The position numbers were made by a program, and so were the translations under genes. A DNA stretch of 64,000 nucleotides from Nitrospirota bacterium (lineage in GTDB: Bacteria; Nitrospirota; Thermodesulfovibrionia; UBA6902). The stretch is from NCBI GenBank assembly GCA_016214845.1, contig JACRMS010000026.1:1-64000 (forward strand). Reading direction: 5' to 3'. How positions within the stretch are numbered: position 1 is the first letter of the stretch; every line of letters begins with the position of its first letter. Under the pieces are notes generated by a model, which worked only from the letters and a program-made list of their open reading frames with translations, did no database searches and was not told where the DNA came from. Shown piece by piece: positions 24,263-33,643 of the stretch.

Positions 24263-25909
24263 TCAAAAGCTGATCAACCCCACAGCCTTCTTCAAAATCA
24301 GCAGGGCATCGGATATATCAATCCTGTTGTCCGGGGCAGTTAACGGAGCGACGTCTCCGTGATACATATCTTCATTTGTTGCTGTAGCAAGGCCGACCGC
24401 AATACGCAATGCCTTGAGCGCATCGCAGACGCTTACCGCAGCGCCGCCGCATAATTTACCATCAGAGAGGATGACTGTTATAACTGCCGTTTGCGTGGCG
24501 ATGTTCCCGGTAAGGTCGGCAGCGGTAACAGTAATGCTGTTTGCTCCCGGGGACAATCCGCTGACAGGGACGCTCCATGCCGTGCCGCTGACAGTGACTG
24601 AGCCTGCGACAGCCGGAGCGCTGACCGTGACCTCCGGGACCACGCCGGCTTCCACTGTCCCGGAGATCAGCTTAGTTGTGGAAGTGGAAGTGGCGATGGC
24701 ATCAATAGTAAGGGCAGGAGCTGAAATATCTGGACCGCTCACCGGCCAGGCCATAAGGAGGCCGCTTCCCTTTGAGGCGGCATTAACACTTCCGTCAAAC
24801 ACGCTGACCACCCATGCTGTCTTTGTGTCGGCTGCGCTTGTCGTTGAGGACCAGAAGACGTACTCCTTTACCATAAGAGGCACAAAAGGACTCAGGTCGG
24901 GGAGAGCAGGATTTCCAGTTGCATAATCTATATGGCTTCGCACCTCCTTCCGGTTAGGTAGCCGCCAGTTGCTAAGGCCGAGATATGAATTTTGATTAAG
25001 ACACTTTATATGGTCGAGTGCCTCCTGCCAGTTCATTACATGTCCGGTATCGGGACAGGCAGCAGGTCCGGGGCTGTTTGCGTCAAGGGGCCAGATGAGG
25101 CCGGTCAGTTTGTCAACAGCAAGGGTCGCGGCAGAGCTCGGGCCTACATTCGTTTTGAATCTGGGAGAAGGCCACGCCGCGCCTGCAAGCATCTCTCCGT
25201 CCTGGCCCGCCAGACTGGTGCCGCAGGGATTGATTCTACTGCCTGCAACATCGAAACACTTTGTCTGTCCGGTCTTCCATAACTGAGTTGATAAGCCGCG
25301 CACAGGCCAGACAGCCCTTGTAAGGTCTTTATCAGAGGTCAATGCCAAGTCGCCTGAAACGAGGGACACGTCCCATGCGTCAGGTGCTGGAGGCACGGCC
25401 TTGAGATTGCTGTTATCGTTTGTGGAAGTCCAGTACAGGTCCGCCTGGACCAGGGTAAAGCCGTTCGCGATTAAATAGACTGATGAATTCGCTGCTCCTG
25501 CATGGACCAGGCTCTCCATCTCGTTAAGGTTTGGAAGACGCCAGTCGGCGAAGCCGGAAAAATTATTAGCGTTGAGGCATGTCACAAAAGCAAGGGCCTG
25601 CTGCCATGTCATTTTGCTCCCGGCGTTTACGCATACACCCGGAGAAGGGTCCGGGGCATTCGCGTTCTTGCTCCAGATAAGCCCGGTAAGATTGTCGGTT
25701 ATAGTTGCATTGCCGTTATCGCTGAACCGCACAGGCCACGCTGCTCCGGCCTGCTTCTCGCCGTCTTCTCCGGTGCCAAGACACGCGCGGGGATTCCCGT
25801 TTATATCAAAGCATGCTGTCTGACCGGTTGCAGGTAGTTGAACGGCATTTGAAAGCTCCGGCACGATCAGCAGGAAAGTTATAACAAGTGTCACTATTTT
25901 ATTGATCAT
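24263..25909 (-). CDS. DUF1566 (Lcl-type) protein with dockerin-like C-terminus
   Basis: A 548-residue exported protein. I use the ATG at 25909 (MINKIVTLVITFLLIV) because AAGGAGAT precedes it; the ATG at 25933 lies ahead of this site. Two DUF1566/Lcl_C repeats follow, each with GLIWSKNAN or GLIWPLDAN, a WRLPN motif and a C-terminal VWPVRG or AWPVSG. Then comes an Ig-like segment (about 405-490). The last 65 residues contain DALKALRIAVGL and GDVAPL...NRIDISDALLILKKAVGL, the paired Asp-rich loop/helix pattern of type I dockerin; the first loop is degenerate. The adjacent cohesin-like genes make docking plausible. Confidence 0.82.
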   Translation of the reverse strand: MINKIVTLVITFLLIVPELSNAVQLPATGQTACFDINGNPRACLGTGEDGEKQAGAAWPVRFSDNGNATITDNLTGLIWSKNANAPDPSPGVCVNAGSKMTWQQALAFVTCLNANNFSGFADWRLPNLNEMESLVHAGAANSSVYLIANGFTLVQADLYWTSTNDNSNLKAVPPAPDAWDVSLVSGDLALTSDKDLTRAVWPVRGLSTQLWKTGQTKCFDVAGSRINPCGTSLAGQDGEMLAGAAWPSPRFKTNVGPSSAATLAVDKLTGLIWPLDANSPGPAACPDTGHVMNWQEALDHIKCLNQNSYLGLSNWRLPNRKEVRSHIDYATGNPALPDLSPFVPLMVKEYVFWSSTTSAADTKTAWVVSVFDGSVNAASKGSGLLMAWPVSGPDISAPALTIDAIATSTSTTKLISGTVEAGVVPEVTVSAPAVAGSVTVSGTAWSVPVSGLSPGANSITVTAADLTGNIATQTAVITVILSDGKLCGGAAVSVCDALKALRIAVGLATATNEDMYHGDVAPLTAPDNRIDISDALLILKKAVGLISF

Positions 25910-25939
25910 GAATATCTCCTTTTCACTTTTCATTGCCGC

Positions 25940-28900
25940 CTACCTCACCGCCGCAGGGTATGCCGGGCGGGACGTTCCCAGCGGTGACGATTGAACGCTG
26001 ATAGTGCGGGTTGCGTCAGGGAGAACAGAAGAACCGCTCTGGCGGAAACTCCACAACCCTTCAATGGGAGATGCTGTGCCGATGACCGTGCCGGTCAGGC
26101 TGTTGCCGCTGTAAATAGTTATCGTGGTCGCAAGCAGGTTCGTCGTAGTCCCTTCAACAACCCAGTCGCCGGTAGTGGCAGTAGCTGTCCTGAACTGTGC
26201 CCTGAGAACTGTAACTGTCTCGGAAACCGGCGATGTAACGCTCACTGTGACTGTCGCGGAATTGGAGACATTGCCGATGATATCTTTCACTGTGTATGTG
26301 AAGACATCTGTGCCGGTAAAACCGGTAACCGGCGTATAGGTAATCGTGCCGTCAAGGTTAGCTGCTGCCGTGCCGTGAAGCGGAGCAGAAGCCGCGAGCG
26401 TGTTCGGCGCAAGGGCATTGCTGACGCCGGTATCATTGGCTGTCACGTTTATTGTCTTTGATACATTCATCGCAGTCATGGCAGCGTCGTTTGCCGCGAC
26501 CGGCGGGGTGTTCATATTCCTGAAGATCGTTGCAACCGGCAGAGTAGTAGTATTGCCAATGGCATCATTAGCGCTGACTTCAATAGTATTATCTCCTGCG
26601 TTCGTAAGCCCGGCGGTATAACTCCATGAGGTTCCGGTCACGGTCGCAGCAGACGCTGCGCCTCCGTTGACTGAAACATGCACCGCGGCCCCTGCCTCCA
26701 CTGTGCCGGAGATAATCTGTGTAGACAAGCCGGTCGGGGTTGATACAGCATTAAGTGTAAGAGAAGGCGGAGTTGTGTCAAGAGTTATCGTAGCTGTTAT
26801 CGATGTCTGTATACTGCTGGCGATCTCGACAGCGCTGACCTCAATGGCGTTTGCTCCTTCCTGAAATCCGCCGATATCAGCGCTCCAGGTTATGCCGGTC
26901 ACAATTGCATTGACCGGCGCGCCGCCGTTGACTGTAACAGCCGGGGTCGTCATACCGGCTTGCACTGTTCCTGAAATTGTTTGAGCAGTTGAATTAGTAG
27001 GGCTGAGCACTGCATTGAGCGTGAGGGCAAGCTGCGGCGCTGGCACTCCGTTTGAGTCACGGGCGGGAATATGGGTCAACACTTCGGGGTCGCCTTCCGG
27101 AATAAACAGCTCAGGATGGTCGAAGGGCGCTGACTCGTTCCTGACCCTCGGATCTGTAAGAGCTGTGAGGAAATCGGTTATAGCTACATGGAGGGTCTGG
27201 TTATTTGATATCAGCGTGAGTCCGGCGCCGATTACAGGGTCAAGGTTATGGATGTTTTCTGCCGGGAAGTTTCCGCCCCGGGAATAAAAGTTCACAACAC
27301 TATCAAGAGTCATTTCACTGCCGTTATGAAAGTAAGGGCCGGTCAGCTCCACGTTTCGCAGCCCCGGAACTTTGAATGCGCCGTCTGCGACAACAGGCAT
27401 ATTGACCGGAATGAAGGACTGGAGTATCGGGGTTTCGAAAGGTAAAAGGGCCTGCTCCTGGAGCTCTGCAAGACGCGAGAATGAAAGCGGAAACGGCTGT
27501 CCTGTCAGCAGGTTGGTAAAAGGCGCTGTCCCGCCCCTGCTGAGGTCCTCGGCGGTCGGTCTTATTGCGTTATTTACAAAGCCCTCGTCGTAGATATTCT
27601 GCACGCCGTCTGCCGCGAACATCAACTCTATTGTGTTATTAATGGTATTGTTCAAAAACCCAATGTTGGCAATAGAGTGGGCGGTCAATTCGGTGCCGAT
27701 GTGGCAGACAGTGCAATTGCCGACACCTGCGAAGAGAGAGAACCCGAACTGCTGTTGTTCAGTGAGTGCGGTTGTATCCCCCGCCAGCCAGCGATCGAAC
27801 GGGGAGTCGCCGGAGACCAGAGTTGCCTCATAGAGCTGAATAGCAAGCCCCCAGAAGAGAGAGAAGTTCGCCTCCATCTGGGTAAACCCGTCAGGCGTAA
27901 GCTTCGACGAATTCCAGAGGTTGTCGTTAAAAGCCTCCCTTATCAACTGAGCATAGCCAGTATGGAGCCCTTTGGCGCCGGGAGTGACGGCAGAGTTGGC
28001 AAGGCCGCCAAGCACACTGTCATCATGACTGACGAGCTGCTTGCCGAGTGGTGTCAAACCGAGCAGCTTTCTGCCAAGCATGGGAAAGGTGCGGCCCCTG
28101 CCTGACATCTCGACGGAGTCAAGAGGGGGGCCCACCGCCTGGGAGGCGAGGCTCGCGAATTCTATGACAACAGGCCGCTTCACAAGCTGCGGCTGAGCAG
28201 GATCGTCAAACCAGACGCCCGCATTCGCATCTGCGGGGCCGAAAGGATTTTCTCCATTAAAGCGGAAGTTGGCCCGGCCGTCCCAGAAGTTGGTGAAATT
28301 AAATACGGCATTTATCATGGTCGGTGCATTGCGGCCGGTAACCCGCCGGAGATTGCCGTACACAGGATCGTGGAAAACAGTGTCAGCTTCGGCAGCAAGC
28401 GCACTGTCCACAGACGGGTCCGGGAAGACGCCGACCCCGACGAAATCGGAGAGGCGGACCCCCTGTGACCCGATCACATCATTGGTATCGCGAATGATCG
28501 GATCAGTCTGTAAGTGACCGGAGCCATCCCGTTGATGCAGGGGAAAGTCATTGACCGGGTCCAGAGTATAGTTCGGTCCGAACTGAGAAAACCCGTTGAC
28601 CCCCAATGTATTGTTTCCGAAGATCGTATCGCCGGCTTTTGTTCCGGGGTTAAGAGTATTCTTGAGCCGTTTGTCCACGCCGGCGCTGTGATGGCATGTC
28701 GCACAGGCCACAATGCCGTCGCTCCCCGCCTGCATCTCCCAGAAGAATGCCTTTCCGATCTGGATTGCAATGCTTTTGTTTTTCACATAGGTGAAGAGCT
28801 GCGGCGGCTCTGTGACCGCGCTCTGGTTGAGCGGGTTCAGTGCGGGCGGGGGCACAACAATTATTCCCCACGCTGTCCTGACGATCATAACAGCGCAGAC

Positions 28901-28963
28901 TATCGCTATTGCCAGCAAACATATGGCAGCTTGTGATGTTAAATAATGTTGCCGTTTTTTCAT
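25940..28963 (-). CDS. MauG/dihaem cytochrome c peroxidase-like protein with Ig-type C-terminal domains
   Basis: A 1007-residue exported protein. The start MKKRQHYL (28963) has AAGAGAT upstream; the alternative TTG at 28990 does not give a better signal. After a transmembrane/signal segment, two haem motifs (CATCH at about 87; CTVCH at about 417) and the LRNVELTGPYFHNGS segment identify the di-haem peroxidase/MauG family. Residues about 640-1007 hold Ig-like domains (VNGGAPVNAIVTG; VNGGAASAATVTG) and a tandem-95 unit (FTGTDVFTYTVKD). Family members are H2O2 peroxidases or haem oxidases acting on proteins or other substrates. The added surface modules are unusual and suggest attachment outside the cell. 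Confidence 0.88.
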   Translation of the reverse strand: MKKRQHYLTSQAAICLLAIAIVCAVMIVRTAWGIIVVPPPALNPLNQSAVTEPPQLFTYVKNKSIAIQIGKAFFWEMQAGSDGIVACATCHHSAGVDKRLKNTLNPGTKAGDTIFGNNTLGVNGFSQFGPNYTLDPVNDFPLHQRDGSGHLQTDPIIRDTNDVIGSQGVRLSDFVGVGVFPDPSVDSALAAEADTVFHDPVYGNLRRVTGRNAPTMINAVFNFTNFWDGRANFRFNGENPFGPADANAGVWFDDPAQPQLVKRPVVIEFASLASQAVGPPLDSVEMSGRGRTFPMLGRKLLGLTPLGKQLVSHDDSVLGGLANSAVTPGAKGLHTGYAQLIREAFNDNLWNSSKLTPDGFTQMEANFSLFWGLAIQLYEATLVSGDSPFDRWLAGDTTALTEQQQFGFSLFAGVGNCTVCHIGTELTAHSIANIGFLNNTINNTIELMFAADGVQNIYDEGFVNNAIRPTAEDLSRGGTAPFTNLLTGQPFPLSFSRLAELQEQALLPFETPILQSFIPVNMPVVADGAFKVPGLRNVELTGPYFHNGSEMTLDSVVNFYSRGGNFPAENIHNLDPVIGAGLTLISNNQTLHVAITDFLTALTDPRVRNESAPFDHPELFIPEGDPEVLTHIPARDSNGVPAPQLALTLNAVLSPTNSTAQTISGTVQAGMTTPAVTVNGGAPVNAIVTGITWSADIGGFQEGANAIEVSAVEIASSIQTSITATITLDTTPPSLTLNAVSTPTGLSTQIISGTVEAGAAVHVSVNGGAASAATVTGTSWSYTAGLTNAGDNTIEVSANDAIGNTTTLPVATIFRNMNTPPVAANDAAMTAMNVSKTINVTANDTGVSNALAPNTLAASAPLHGTAAANLDGTITYTPVTGFTGTDVFTYTVKDIIGNVSNSATVTVSVTSPVSETVTVLRAQFRTATATTGDWVVEGTTTNLLATTITIYSGNSLTGTVIGTASPIEGLWSFRQSGSSVLPDATRTISVQSSPLGTSRPAYPAAVR

Positions 28964-29029
28964 CGCGATCTCTTGTGCTCTAACTTCCAAATTAGAATCA
29001 GTCCTAATTTTGAACAGTAATCTTTTTCT

Positions 29030-29119
29030 GTCATTCCGGCGGCTCCAACTCTGTCATTCCGGCTTGTCCGGAATCTTCTCCAAAAAGAATTCCCGGCGCG
29101 CTTCGCTTGCGGGAATGAC
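29030..29119. repeat. Composite GTCATTCC...GGGAATGAC repeat
   Basis: About 90 bp with two GTCATTCCGGC starts (29030 and 29052) and terminal GCGGGAATGAC. It lies between the second copper oxidase-like gene and the MauG-like gene. Confidence 0.8.
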
Positions 29120-29141
29120 GACCCAAAACACCCTTCTCACT

Positions 29142-30503
29142 TTACGCGCTAATAACAATCGGTATCCTTCCGTTCAACAAAGAAGCCCCTGTCCTGTTGT
29201 GAATGAACTCCACATTAGCAAAGCTACTAAAGGGCGTCGCCGATCTCATCAGCACATCAAACCGCCGCGCAGTTGAAAGCTCATAGGGCGTATTTGCCGG
29301 CAGCAGAAAAGGTTTGGTGTACTGGTTCAGCGGCGGCACTCCCAGCGCCCTGCCGTCAAAGGCGATGATCACGACATCTATAGGGAATGTGATCTTGATG
29401 CCGACATAGGCAGCGCAGAGAGCGCGTATAAGTATCGTCTGATTTACCTTTGCATTGACCGAGACCTGCATCCCTGTTACCCCGCTGTTCAGGTACGGTG
29501 GAACGGTGATTCCGGGGGCAATGCTTATCGTGTTTCCGACATGGGCCGGAAACGGAACGCCTGTGCAAAAAAAGTAATCGGGATTGAAGTCGTGAAAATC
29601 CCCTAACATAAACTGGTCATTGCTTCCGGGCTGGCTTCCATGCTTTGGAAAGGTATCAAAGGCGCCGCTCATATTATCACTCCATACGGAATCACGGTCA
29701 TCAAGCACCCAGAGCGCTTCCACATCATAGGGTATTGTCATAGCGTGAGGGTCGCCGCTTCTAAGGTCTCCTCCGGTAAAACCCGGGAACATAGCCTGGA
29801 ACTCCGGGAAATTAGTGAAGTTGGCCGCGGTCCTGCGAGGATAGCCTCCGGCATAATCAGGCAGCGCCGGGTTCTGCTGGTTGAACGCGTCGGGCGGCTC
29901 TATAAGGAGCATTCCGTACAACCCGAACTCAAAGTGCTGCATTGTGTTTCTGTGGCAGTGGTAAAAATAGGTGCCGATGAAATTGGGCTGCCACTGATAA
30001 GTATATTTTCCAAGCTCCATAGAGCAGTGCCCTACCCCGTCATTCATCGGGGTCGGCTCTATGCCGTGCCAGTGAATGGTATGGGGCGGCGGGCCGCCTG
30101 CGCTGGTCTGGCCATGGAAAACAACCCCGCGCGGCACGCGGATAGTCGGCCCCGGCCATACACCGCCTACTCCATTTGTAGCAACAGGATCAAAAGTCTG
30201 GAAAATATCCGGGTCCATAAAGGTGAAGAACCTGAGCGCTTTTAAGCCGTCCCACGAGGTGATAGTCCCTCCATGCATCAGGCTCCGGCCCACCGTATGA
30301 GGCGGCGACGGAACGTACCCCACTGTTGTAGGCGTAAATTCGGGATGCGCCGCCCTGATAAATTCCGGCACAGGGTTTGTCGGGCTCAAAAGCTCCGGCG
30401 TGTCCGGGCTTGCCGTAGGGGGGTCAAACATCTTGACCCACTCCCCTTCCATCCCTTGCACCGACTGTCTTTGAATATGAAATGCTGGATTATTGAATGA
30501 CAT
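29142..30503 (-). CDS. Multicopper-oxidase-like cupredoxin protein without signal peptide
   Basis: A 453-residue protein with cupredoxin-type domains. HTIHWHG (141-147) is multicopper oxidase ligand motif 1, and YFYHCHRNTMQHFEFGLYG (about 179-197) has a Cys flanked by His residues, as in type 1/type 3 copper sites. The C-terminal half (about 290-450) is beta-rich without recognisable copper motifs. AAGGAGATA precedes the ATG and fixes the start; the N-terminus (MSFNNPAFHIQRQ) is not a signal peptide. The gene begins 31 bp after the Tat-type copper lipoprotein gene, whose motifs complement these. The two may form one exported enzyme. Confidence 0.8.
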   Translation of the reverse strand: MSFNNPAFHIQRQSVQGMEGEWVKMFDPPTASPDTPELLSPTNPVPEFIRAAHPEFTPTTVGYVPSPPHTVGRSLMHGGTITSWDGLKALRFFTFMDPDIFQTFDPVATNGVGGVWPGPTIRVPRGVVFHGQTSAGGPPPHTIHWHGIEPTPMNDGVGHCSMELGKYTYQWQPNFIGTYFYHCHRNTMQHFEFGLYGMLLIEPPDAFNQQNPALPDYAGGYPRRTAANFTNFPEFQAMFPGFTGGDLRSGDPHAMTIPYDVEALWVLDDRDSVWSDNMSGAFDTFPKHGSQPGSNDQFMLGDFHDFNPDYFFCTGVPFPAHVGNTISIAPGITVPPYLNSGVTGMQVSVNAKVNQTILIRALCAAYVGIKITFPIDVVIIAFDGRALGVPPLNQYTKPFLLPANTPYELSTARRFDVLMRSATPFSSFANVEFIHNRTGASLLNGRIPIVISA

Positions 30504-30534
30504 GTTGTATCTCCTTCTTGATGAAAATTCTCAT

Positions 30535-32064
30535 TTAATGACCATGCCCTGCAAACTCCACTGTTGCCGGGCCTGTAGATTCAGGGCCGTGCATGTCAGG
30601 CGCGTTAGGGAACGTCATCACCCCGCCTGCGGCATTGCGGTCTCCGGTGAAATTTATACCTGAGATCAACCCGCAATTGTAATTGCCTCCCTGCGCCGAC
30701 TGCGATGCCTCTGAATGGTCGTGCATTGGGTAACAGAGGGGTGACAACTGCACCGAGAGATCAACACCATTGCCGGCTATTGTTCCTTTCGGCGGGATAA
30801 AGGTGTTCAGTTCCTGGTCCGGCGGCCAGACCGGCTTGCCGGTGACTGGCGAGGTGAGCGGAGTGTCCGCGCGCCCGATGCCCCCGACATTTGGAATGTC
30901 CGGCGGCCTGATATAGGGCACCAGCCATTCATAGGTGTCCAGCGCATGCAGCGTATAGCTGTCCACCCATAGTGGATTTTCTCTGACCACATTATTTTCT
31001 GCCAGCACAAATACGTGGTTTGCGTGTATGTGCAGGGAATGCATGTGCAGCCCCGCGTTGAGACAGCGGATAATTACCGGCTCGCCCACGCGGTTGTTCG
31101 GGCAGATGTAAGGATTGTTGTGGGAGAAATGTCCGGACTGCCCGTTGATGGTAAAGAAGTGCGCCTTCTTGTTGAAGCTTCCATTCTTAAATGAATTTAC
31201 ATAAGGATCGTTCAGGAATGCATCCACGAAGGTTGCGGCAGGGTAATCCTGCCCTGCGGGATACTGCCCCACCTCCTGAAACAGCAGTGGACTGGCCTGA
31301 TGACACAGCCAGATGTACTGCCTGAAGGCCGGGGTCTTGCCTGTAGAAGAATTGTCAGCCTCCTCCCATGCGAGACCGGGCCAGTGCTCGGCTGTTCCAA
31401 GGTCATCAAACAACTGCTGCACCGCGGTTGTGGGATTGCTGAACGGGGTAAATTTATGACCGGCAACTGCCTGCCTCGGCATAACTACAAGCGCGCCGTG
31501 AAGTCCCATCACGCGGTTTACAGGCTCGTTAAGATTATCATAGTAGAGAAATGTGCCTGTCTTTGAAAGTGTGAATTCAAAGGTCTGTGTAGCTCCCGGC
31601 GCAACCGGACCGCTGCTGAACATGCCGGGCACATGAAGAGCGTGGGGTTCGTCAAGATCATTGGTCAGAGTCAGTCTGATAACGTCTCCCTGAAACGCAA
31701 TGATATTGGGTCCCGGACAATCAGCATCTAAGTGAGGAGATTCACTCTTGTATATCCAGAAGTAGCAGCGCGCGTTTCTTAACGAATTGTGGGTGACCAT
31801 ATCTTTCATCGCATCAGTAATGCGGAATGTAATAGCCTGGATCACCGGCGTTACTGGAATTGGGTCCTGGGTGCTCGGAAAATTACCACCTCCATTACCA
31901 TCACCACTTCCATTGCCACTGCTATTACCGCCGGAGCTGCTGCCGCCTCCACCGCCGCCTCCACCGCCGCAGGCGCCGAGAACGATAGTCGCTATCCCGC
32001 CTCCCGCGTAAATAAGGAATTGACGCCTGTCAATCAATGCTTTCTTAATGCTGTTGTTTTTCAA
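30535..32064 (-). CDS. Tat-exported multicopper-oxidase-like lipoprotein
   Basis: A 509-residue protein starting at TTG after GGAGGG. The N-terminus has the twin-arginine motif DRRQFLIY, a hydrophobic core and lipobox LGAC (Cys32), followed by a long Gly/Ser/Asn linker. Cupredoxin domains follow. The region at 139-147 (EPHALHVPG) and TFLYYDNLNEPVNRVMGLHG (171-190) lie where motifs 1 and 2 normally sit but lack several His ligands. HMHSLHIHANH (340-350) and CYPMHDHSE (444-452) match motifs 3 and 4. Tat export fits a copper protein folded in the cytoplasm. Its partner may be the next gene. The substrate is unknown; metal oxidation is one possibility. Confidence 0.83.
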   Translation of the reverse strand: MKNNSIKKALIDRRQFLIYAGGGIATIVLGACGGGGGGGGGSSSGGNSSGNGSGDGNGGGNFPSTQDPIPVTPVIQAITFRITDAMKDMVTHNSLRNARCYFWIYKSESPHLDADCPGPNIIAFQGDVIRLTLTNDLDEPHALHVPGMFSSGPVAPGATQTFEFTLSKTGTFLYYDNLNEPVNRVMGLHGALVVMPRQAVAGHKFTPFSNPTTAVQQLFDDLGTAEHWPGLAWEEADNSSTGKTPAFRQYIWLCHQASPLLFQEVGQYPAGQDYPAATFVDAFLNDPYVNSFKNGSFNKKAHFFTINGQSGHFSHNNPYICPNNRVGEPVIIRCLNAGLHMHSLHIHANHVFVLAENNVVRENPLWVDSYTLHALDTYEWLVPYIRPPDIPNVGGIGRADTPLTSPVTGKPVWPPDQELNTFIPPKGTIAGNGVDLSVQLSPLCYPMHDHSEASQSAQGGNYNCGLISGINFTGDRNAAGGVMTFPNAPDMHGPESTGPATVEFAGHGH

Positions 32065-32191: not shown

Positions 32192-33643
32192 CTAATTTTC
32201 AAGTTCAGCTTCTTCCACCAAAATACCGGCAGGCGGAGTGCTGAACGCTCCCTTCACCTTAACGAGCGTGCCTCCAGTAGTCCCGCTCTTCGCAGTGATT
32301 GCCGCAAAGAATGATTGCGCTGTGGTAATGCTGCTGTCTTCGTCCAGACTGAACTGAACAGCGGCGCCGCTCAGATCAGCGGTGATGCCGAGCATCGTAA
32401 GGGTTAAGTTCGTAGCGTCTTTTGCTTCCACCTCTGCCTGAAGTGTATCTTTGCATGAGTTGCCATCATCTTTTATTTCACTGGCGATTATGTTGCCTGA
32501 GGAATCTACAAAGCCGCGCATCTGGACACACGCTTCAGTGCCGGTAAAGCTGGTATCTTTGGTCATGTCGTTGATCGTAACGGTCTTTCCCATCATGATG
32601 ATCTGGCCGGGCAAACCTGTAAGGTCCAGATTATCGGTAGTTATGCGGACCACCTTCTTCTTAAACTTAATTTCCCGCGCCTGAAATGACCCGCCGTTCA
32701 TTGTGCCGTCGACTTCTACAGAAACACCGTTTGCAAGGTCTATTGACGAACCGCTGCTGAACTCCGTTGCTGATGTTGTTGTCACGGAGACGGTGCCGAC
32801 ATTGAATGTCCCCGGATGCGCGGTGAATCCGGCAATAAACCCTTCTATCTCGAAGTCCTCATTTTCCGCAGGCACAAATTCCGCGTCTTCCTCATCTTCA
32901 AACTGTACTTTGGCAGCCGTGATCACGCCGCCTGCCAGAGAACCTTCAACTTCAACAAGTTCGCCGTTGACCAGCGTCATGCCCGCAGGCTCGATCGTTG
33001 CAGTAGCAAAGTTCACTACCTGTGTGCCGATAGTAAACGTCGTTGCAGTGAGATTGCCAATCATACCCCTGAGATTCACTCCATCGTCAGCAAACTCGTT
33101 TTTCAGCTCTACGCGGGTGGCAATGATATTGCCCATATCGTCTCTTTGGCCGTGCACTTCCACCTCTGTAGTACCGGCAACAATATCAGCAAGCAGGCCA
33201 TTTGCAAAAACAGTCGAGTCATCAACAATAACCTTCTGTCCGGCTACCGTTAAAGTGTCAGGGTTCGCTGTCGTATCCTTCGCGGTTACGTTCCCCTGGA
33301 CTTCATTTTCAGCTTCAATTGTGTCTGCCGTTCCGGTAACGCCGTCGTCATTAACAGTCCCTTTGACATGCACCTGCATCCCGTCCTTAAGCTCTGTCTC
33401 CGGTCTGCCGGGGTTGTCATCAATCCTAATAGAGGCGCCTGAAGCTACAGTGAACTCAACACCGTTTACAATTACGCTGCCCTTTGTCATTGTGCCGGAC
33501 ATTACCGCAGCCTTCGCAGTCCCGCCACCACCGCCGCTTCCTCCGCTGCTTCCGCTGCTTCCGCCGCCTCCGCCTCCACAGGCGATTAATGCTAAAGCGG
33601 CAAATACCGCAAACAGGATTGTAAATATATTTTGTTTTCTCAC
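32192..33643 (-). CDS. Poly-Gly DUF5666-type lipoprotein
   Basis: A 483-residue lipoprotein starting at GTG after GGGAGGACAAA. Lipobox LIAC is followed by GGGGGGSSGSSGG and more Gly. The rest is at least four DUF5666-like beta repeats, each with the pattern GxV(E/H)VxGxxxxxG and xxAxxIEx (for example DGMQVHVKGTVNDDG; NGELVEVEGSLAGG; NGVSVEVDGTMNGG). The domains have no known function; they look like surface or periplasmic binding modules. First gene of the eight-gene redox operon that ends at 20443. Confidence 0.85.
   Translation of the reverse strand: MRKQNIFTILFAVFAALALIACGGGGGGSSGSSGGSGGGGGTAKAAVMSGTMTKGSVIVNGVEFTVASGASIRIDDNPGRPETELKDGMQVHVKGTVNDDGVTGTADTIEAENEVQGNVTAKDTTANPDTLTVAGQKVIVDDSTVFANGLLADIVAGTTEVEVHGQRDDMGNIIATRVELKNEFADDGVNLRGMIGNLTATTFTIGTQVVNFATATIEPAGMTLVNGELVEVEGSLAGGVITAAKVQFEDEEDAEFVPAENEDFEIEGFIAGFTAHPGTFNVGTVSVTTTSATEFSSGSSIDLANGVSVEVDGTMNGGSFQAREIKFKKKVVRITTDNLDLTGLPGQIIMMGKTVTINDMTKDTSFTGTEACVQMRGFVDSSGNIIASEIKDDGNSCKDTLQAEVEAKDATNLTLTMLGITADLSGAAVQFSLDEDSSITTAQSFFAAITAKSGTTGGTLVKVKGAFSTPPAGILVEEAELEN

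Follow-up and report, generated by a model that had tools for sequence, protein, structure and literature searches.

Multicopper oxidases are reduced by their substrate at a type 1 copper, from which electrons travel about 13 Å to a trinuclear copper cluster (TNC), where O2 is reduced to water. To our knowledge, in all described multicopper oxidases a single gene encodes every copper ligand, and its product functions alone or as a homotrimer. The fungal heterodimeric laccases combine two different subunits in one oxidase, and all copper ligands are found in the large subunit. A literature search in which few subscription papers were covered returned these laccases as the sole heteromeric matches, and no multicopper oxidase with a TNC divided between two genes. 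Two-domain oxidases are trimers in which each cluster is built from two protomers, and in those of type C the type 1 site is located in the N-terminal domain (PMC13151041).

Here, we describe a gene pair encoding two proteins, termed chain A and chain B, across which the copper ligands are divided, unlike in the fungal heterodimeric laccases. The pair was found in a stretch of 64,000 nucleotides from a Nitrospirota bacterium (UBA6902), which we call the window (assembly GCA_016214845.1, contig JACRMS010000026.1, positions 1-64,000, forward strand). From the sequences, we consider it very probable that A and B depend on each other as the subunits of a single multicopper oxidase, share one TNC and are exported together by the Tat pathway.

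Gene layout and copper ligands

The pair is encoded on the minus strand, as are all the genes, domains and motifs for which window coordinates are given below. The gene order is a DUF5666 lipoprotein (32192..33643, Pfam DUF5666), chain B (30535..32064, 509 aa), chain A (29142..30503, 453 aa), a di-haem CCP/MauG-like protein with Ig-like domains (25940..28990, Pfam CCP_MauG) and an Lcl_C-domain protein (24263-25933), and the reading frames of A and B sit at the positions given in the first-pass annotation. Chain B starts with TTG at 32064, preceded by AAAGGAGGG, and its N terminus reads MKNNSIKKALIDRRQFLIYAGGGIATIVLGAC, in which DRRQFL...LGAC represents a Tat signal with a lipobox. The Tat signal peptide DRRQFLIYAGGGIATIVLGAC extends up to the lipobox Cys32 (31969..32064) and is followed by a Gly-rich linker and two cupredoxin domains. 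Chain A likewise consists of two cupredoxin domains. Its start codon, ATG at 30503, is preceded by AAGGAG, and the 31-bp gap between the stop of B and the start of A (30504..30534) contains the Shine-Dalgarno sequence of A, which agrees with the firm start previously assigned to the 453-residue protein. The N terminus of A reads MSFNNPAFHIQRQSV without any hydrophobic stretch, and no signal sequence was seen in the chain, as the same annotation had stated. An intergenic repeat of the inverted GTCATTCCGGC...GGAATGAC type occupies window positions 29030-29125, between A and the CCP-like gene. Promoter and terminator scans gave results no better than chance level.

Both chains match the Pfam Cu-oxidase_3 family (50.1 bits for A and 49.7 bits for B, with a cut-off of 21). 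In profile alignments, domain 1 of A was aligned to domain 1 of B (probability 95.5, E 1.5e-8) and domain 2 of A to domain 2 of B (probability 94.6, E 7e-8); the crossed domain pairs (A-D1/B-D2 and A-D2/B-D1) did not align (probability 1 to 2%). In these alignments, HALHVP and YYDNLNEPVN of B occupy the places of the A motifs HTIHWH and YHCHRNTMQH, and YVGIKITFPID of A occupies that of the B motif HMHSLHIHANH. Because like domains align in order with complementary losses, A and B are shown by their profiles to be paralogues with an identical two-domain order and complementary ligand loss.

Domain 1 of chain A (29859..30191) contains the type 1 site together with half of the TNC. The motif HTIHWH (30066..30083) provides His141 for the type 1 site and His144 and His146 for the TNC, and the motif HCHRNTMQHFEFGL (29919..29960), aligned with 3g5w and 2zwn, provides His182 and His184 for the TNC, Cys183 and His190 for the type 1 site, and Leu195 at the axial position. 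The assignment of HTIHWHG and of a YHCH...GLYG site to this chain was thus correct, as both HTIHWHG and YHCHRNTMQHFEFGLYG were found there. Among 84 aligned A sequences, His141, Cys183, His144, His146, His182 and His184 are invariant (83/83 where aligned), and His190 is retained in 83/84. The axial position is Leu in 74 and Met in 10 of the same sequences. An axial Leu in A instead of the Met of the type C relatives suggests a raised potential of the type 1 copper. The cluster His residues are lost from domain 2 of A (29154..29756), where AAYVGIKITFPID lies opposite AGLHMHSLHIHANH of B in the profile alignment.

Chain B presents the reverse picture. Its domain 1 (31450..31839) has lost the copper ligands, with HALHVPG and YYDNLNEPVN facing the ligand motifs HTIHWHG and YHCHRNTMQH of A, as had been noticed earlier for the motif 1/2 region of the Tat lipoprotein. 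Domain 2 of B (30631..31332) contains half of the TNC, and HMHSLHIHANH and CYPMHDHSE, previously recognised as motifs 3 and 4, are indeed present in this chain. In motif 3, HSLHIH (31024..31041), His345 and His347 are assigned to the TNC and are conserved in 80/80 sequences, and His342, at the type 1-like position, is variable and retained in 63/80 aligned B sequences. Motif 4, His448-Asp449-His450 (30715..30723), has its TNC His residues conserved in 72/72 sequences and an Asp at the position of the type 1 Cys. This position is Asp in 49, Cys in 11, Gly in 10 and Ser in 2 of the B sequences, and because of this variability B is considered to have no conserved type 1 site. We also considered whether the HDH sequence of motif 4 could be a recently broken type 1 site; this was rejected because the type C enzyme 2zwn shares HDH, which is an old type C feature.

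Taken together, the eight His residues of the TNC are split four and four between domain 1 of A and domain 2 of B and are invariant in about 80 relatives, and the sole conserved type 1 site of the pair is located in A (His141, Cys183 and His190). The full set of eight TNC His residues, one type 1 Cys and two type 1 His residues is reached by A and B jointly only. Since the matching ligand sites are lost in domain 2 of A and domain 1 of B, neither chain alone could form a TNC, and the invariance of every proposed cluster ligand in about 80 relatives argues against the motifs being there by chance. The expectation that the two chains together supply a complete copper set stands for the eight cluster His residues and the type 1 site, and it needs correction in that a Cys is missing from motif 4 of B and the type 1 site lies wholly in A. 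Neither chain has a complete ligand set of its own; independently complete sites would have spoken against a split oxidase.

Co-occurrence and proposed export of the pair

Relatives were collected from the host's class and from 84,980 prokaryote genomes, which gave 79 loci. In 76 of these 79 loci, which were retrieved with patterns from A and thus do not form a random sample, the gene immediately upstream of A, in the same orientation, encodes B, intact or partly broken. In two further loci (L056 and L086) the contig begins at that point, and in the last (L122) A is found without B on a contig that is apparently damaged or chimeric. The survey of the host's class is the fairer count: among its 230 genomes, A is encoded in 8 and intact B in those same 8, with B in 9 overall. 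The ninth B (G077:C16:70172-70882) is truncated to about 270 of the 449 profile positions, has no domain 2 ligands, is found without A and is a probable remnant. Going by the record titles, about ten phyla harbour the pair, including Nitrospirota, Desulfobacterota, Myxococcota, Chloroflexota, Planctomycetota, Pseudomonadota, Bacillota, Actinomycetota and Poribacteria, and one of the hosts is an archaeon, Methanoperedens. The genome of the window itself encodes a second, shorter A/B pair (at C28). In the cultured species Skermanella aerolata, the pair is present in at least five diverged copies (contigs L107, L115, L116, L118 and L119), and B is broken in one of them. The distances in the A tree and in the B tree correlate at 0.92 (74 pairs), as linkage alone would also produce.

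The search for fused homologues suggested in the first-pass annotation yielded one case. In L100, a natural fusion joins B and A, in this order, into one chain of 782 residues, of which about 20 form the linker; it is a single case from one metagenome-assembled genome. The long A frames in G003 were also considered as fusions and were rejected, because their extra length consists of C-terminal CarboxypepD_reg repeats and not of B.

Export by the Tat pathway with a signal on one partner alone has precedents. In HybO/HybC and PaoABC, which resemble the A/B pair in having the Tat signal on one subunit only, the partner without a signal is known to hitch-hike (PMC4273604). These are Ni-Fe, Fe-S and Mo enzymes whose cofactors are inserted before export, whereas A and B would build a multicopper oxidase around one common cluster. 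Among oxidases, CueO and CutO are Tat substrates that are metallated after export, and cytoplasmic CueO is without copper (PMC8456105). CueO, CutO and SufI, which are three-domain multicopper oxidases or relatives, share Tat export with the pair but are single chains.

The juxtaposition of a signal-less A and a Tat substrate B, noted earlier for the window, turned out to be uniform among the relatives. The twin-arginine motif is present in 77/77 complete N termini of B, and no signal peptide was found in the 71 N termini of A that were checked. The peak mean hydropathy over 13 residues within the first ~55 residues has a median of 0.57 (maximum 1.51) for A and of 1.66 for B. A few A sequences carry RRSV near the N terminus without a hydrophobic stretch behind it. 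The same pattern of a twin-arginine B and a signal-less A spans Gram-negative, Gram-positive and archaeal hosts, and TatC is encoded in the genome of the window (at C27).

Some A chains carry additional domains. C-terminal CarboxypepD_reg repeats occur on many signal-less A chains (among them those of L035, L049, L054, L060, L061, L068, L077, L079 and L081), and DUF5666 domains are fused to the C terminus of A in L055 (6001-8565); in L099 (6868-9078), DUF5666 is a neighbour. Together with the DUF5666 protein upstream of B in the window, these two loci hint at a functional link between this uncharacterised domain and the pair. We take CarboxypepD_reg and DUF5666 to be domains of exported proteins, and if so, the A chains carrying them would be located outside the cytoplasm. 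As the two halves co-occur and only B has an export tag, the most likely course is assembly inside the cell followed by joint export. Tat hitch-hiking of A on B is thus supported by the N-terminal sequences, and co-export of an apo A/B complex would be the simplest reading.

Because the absence of a recognisable signal in A is itself deduced from its sequence, A could instead be exported by another route and meet B in the periplasm, where the two would still build a single enzyme around a common cluster. We regard this as unlikely, since a signal peptide was found in 0/71 N termini of A, since B is twin-arginine in 77/77 cases, though many cupredoxins use Sec, and since the pattern is kept across Gram-negative, Gram-positive and archaeal hosts.

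Joint models and family placement

We modelled the natural L100 fusion and the window pair with AlphaFold2. The window pair was joined into one chain by reading the stop codon of B as Gly and by a four-base step (CAAC) in the gap, which created the artificial linker GMRIFIKKEIQ. In the alignment for each model, about 20 rows were B and A of the same locus read through the stop in one frame, and the others were single chains. The fusion was modelled with a pLDDT of 89.4 and a pTM of 0.90, and the window pair with a pLDDT of 85.5 and a pTM of 0.89, the linker region being of low confidence. Co-folding of the two chains with copper had been proposed as a check; its structural part came out favourably, as the relative placement of the two chains is predicted with confidence in both joint models, which are single-chain folds of the protein without copper. 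Over the full model length, the best matches in the PDB were MnxG and ceruloplasmin (9bxa and 5n0k) with a TMq of 0.38 to 0.52 and a high r.m.s.d., and one half of each model could be superimposed on type C oxidases with a TMt of 0.68 to 0.73 and an r.m.s.d. of 3 to 5. Ceruloplasmin and MnxG, which are six-domain-like, resemble the A/B pair in assembling non-equivalent two-domain units, but their TNC ligands reside in one polypeptide, whereas those of A/B are distributed over two chains with four domains in total.

These models also bear on the possibility that A and B are independent homo-oligomers with partial copper sets, for example a type 1 electron carrier (A) and a copper-binding lipoprotein (B). 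The full type 1 site held by A alone would suit such a carrier, and the type C relatives are indeed homotrimers (PMC13151041). However, this explanation is improbable, as it leaves the four invariant half-cluster His residues of each chain unexplained and is at odds with the obligate co-occurrence, the fixed gene order, the natural B-A fusion and the confident joint model.

The solved enzymes nearest to A are 3g5w (5.5e-22) and 2zwn (4.2e-21). Both 3g5w, from Nitrosomonas europaea, and 2zwn, a metagenome laccase, are type C enzymes, as their domain 1 motifs also indicate. Domain 2 of B aligns to domain 2 of 2zwn, including the HDH sequence, and the top PDB scores of B domain 1 are those of copper nitrite reductases. 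The NCBIfam models gave scores far below their cut-offs, with 28.5 bits for A against 525 for CueO and 34.8 bits for A against 478.95 for CopA, B scoring lower with both, and with 18.6 bits for A and 28.6 bits for B against 296.3 for the copper nitrite reductase model TIGR02376. The type 2 site of nitrite reductases is formed by three His residues. A nitrite reductase-like centre, in which A would carry the type 1 copper and the subunits would enclose one type 2 copper in place of a TNC, would accommodate the nitrite reductase scores of B domain 1, yet it is highly improbable because the eight invariant His residues, four from each chain, fit a trinuclear cluster and domain 1 of A is closest to the oxidases 3g5w and 2zwn.

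The shared features point instead to the type C oxidases, which resemble the A/B pair in having two cupredoxin domains per chain, with a type 1 site in domain 1 and none in the C-terminal domain, and in the HDH of motif 4 in domain 2 (2zwn). In type C enzymes, domain 1 of one protomer and domain 2 of a second one provide the TNC His residues, as those of A and B would in the pair. Known two-domain enzymes are homo-oligomers with both faces of the cluster encoded in one gene (PMC13151041), whereas A and B have one face per gene and have lost the other; a homotrimer with all ligands in one gene product is thus not what this locus encodes. The best reading of the sequences is that the pair derives from the type C two-domain multicopper oxidases, has become heteromeric and is exported jointly by Tat. 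We infer that it arose by duplication of such an oxidase, each copy retaining one face. The ancestor would have been a type C homotrimer in which domain 1 of each protomer and domain 2 of its neighbour enclosed a TNC. With one face retained per duplicate, domain 1 of A and domain 2 of B would enclose a single TNC, in an AB pair or in a higher ring.

Genomic neighbours and meaning of a proposed divided cluster

For the proposed oxidase, we envisage that A assembles with B in the cytoplasm in the copper-free state and is carried across the membrane by the Tat signal of B. Copper would be loaded outside, where the B of the window would then be anchored as a lipoprotein. The type 1 copper of A would accept electrons from the substrate and pass them along a Cys-His path to the cluster, where O2 would be reduced to water. 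O2 as the acceptor is an assumption, because some of the hosts come from lineages whose known members are mostly anaerobic.

The genes near the pair suggest a role in copper handling or redox chemistry. A di-haem CCP/MauG-like homologue flanks 18 other non-redundant loci with the pair, of both the long and the short subfamilies, and MauG-type oxidation of a partner protein by this neighbour is a possibility. Sco-like proteins are encoded near the pair in 6 loci and CusA/CusB-like efflux parts in about 8, as counted over flanks of unequal length. The CCP/MauG-like and DUF5666 genes are possible functional neighbours of the pair. In L036 (9443-12102) and five similar loci, a Sco1/SenC-like protein is followed, near the pair, by a fusion of a haem motif with a periplasmic-binding-protein-like part, and the two genes form a possible copper delivery module. 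In L037 (1-2762), L046 (7856-12301), L057 and L061, a gene a few kb from the pair encodes another multicopper oxidase, which is very large at about 920 to 1481 aa.

The novelty lies in a variation on the two-domain multicopper oxidases and not in new chemistry. It is likely that the pair represents a widespread heteromeric class of multicopper oxidases, which would have originated by duplication and complementary degeneration, would share one TNC between two gene products, and would have its assembly checked before export, as only the complex would leave by Tat. The cultured hosts (Geomonas, Citrifermentans, Pelotalea, Skermanella, Minicystis and Paenibacillus) make the pair directly testable. 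If the proposal is true, the two-domain multicopper oxidases would gain a fourth kind alongside types A, B and C, one that crosses the membrane as a complex by Tat hitch-hiking. Two genes that divide the ligands between them and are passed on jointly in about ten phyla would represent an intermediate step in multicopper oxidase evolution, a subunit specialisation of which we found no earlier description. The pair would then provide a natural experiment in the conversion of a homotrimer into an obligate heteromer, a step that could be en route to ceruloplasmin-like enzymes.
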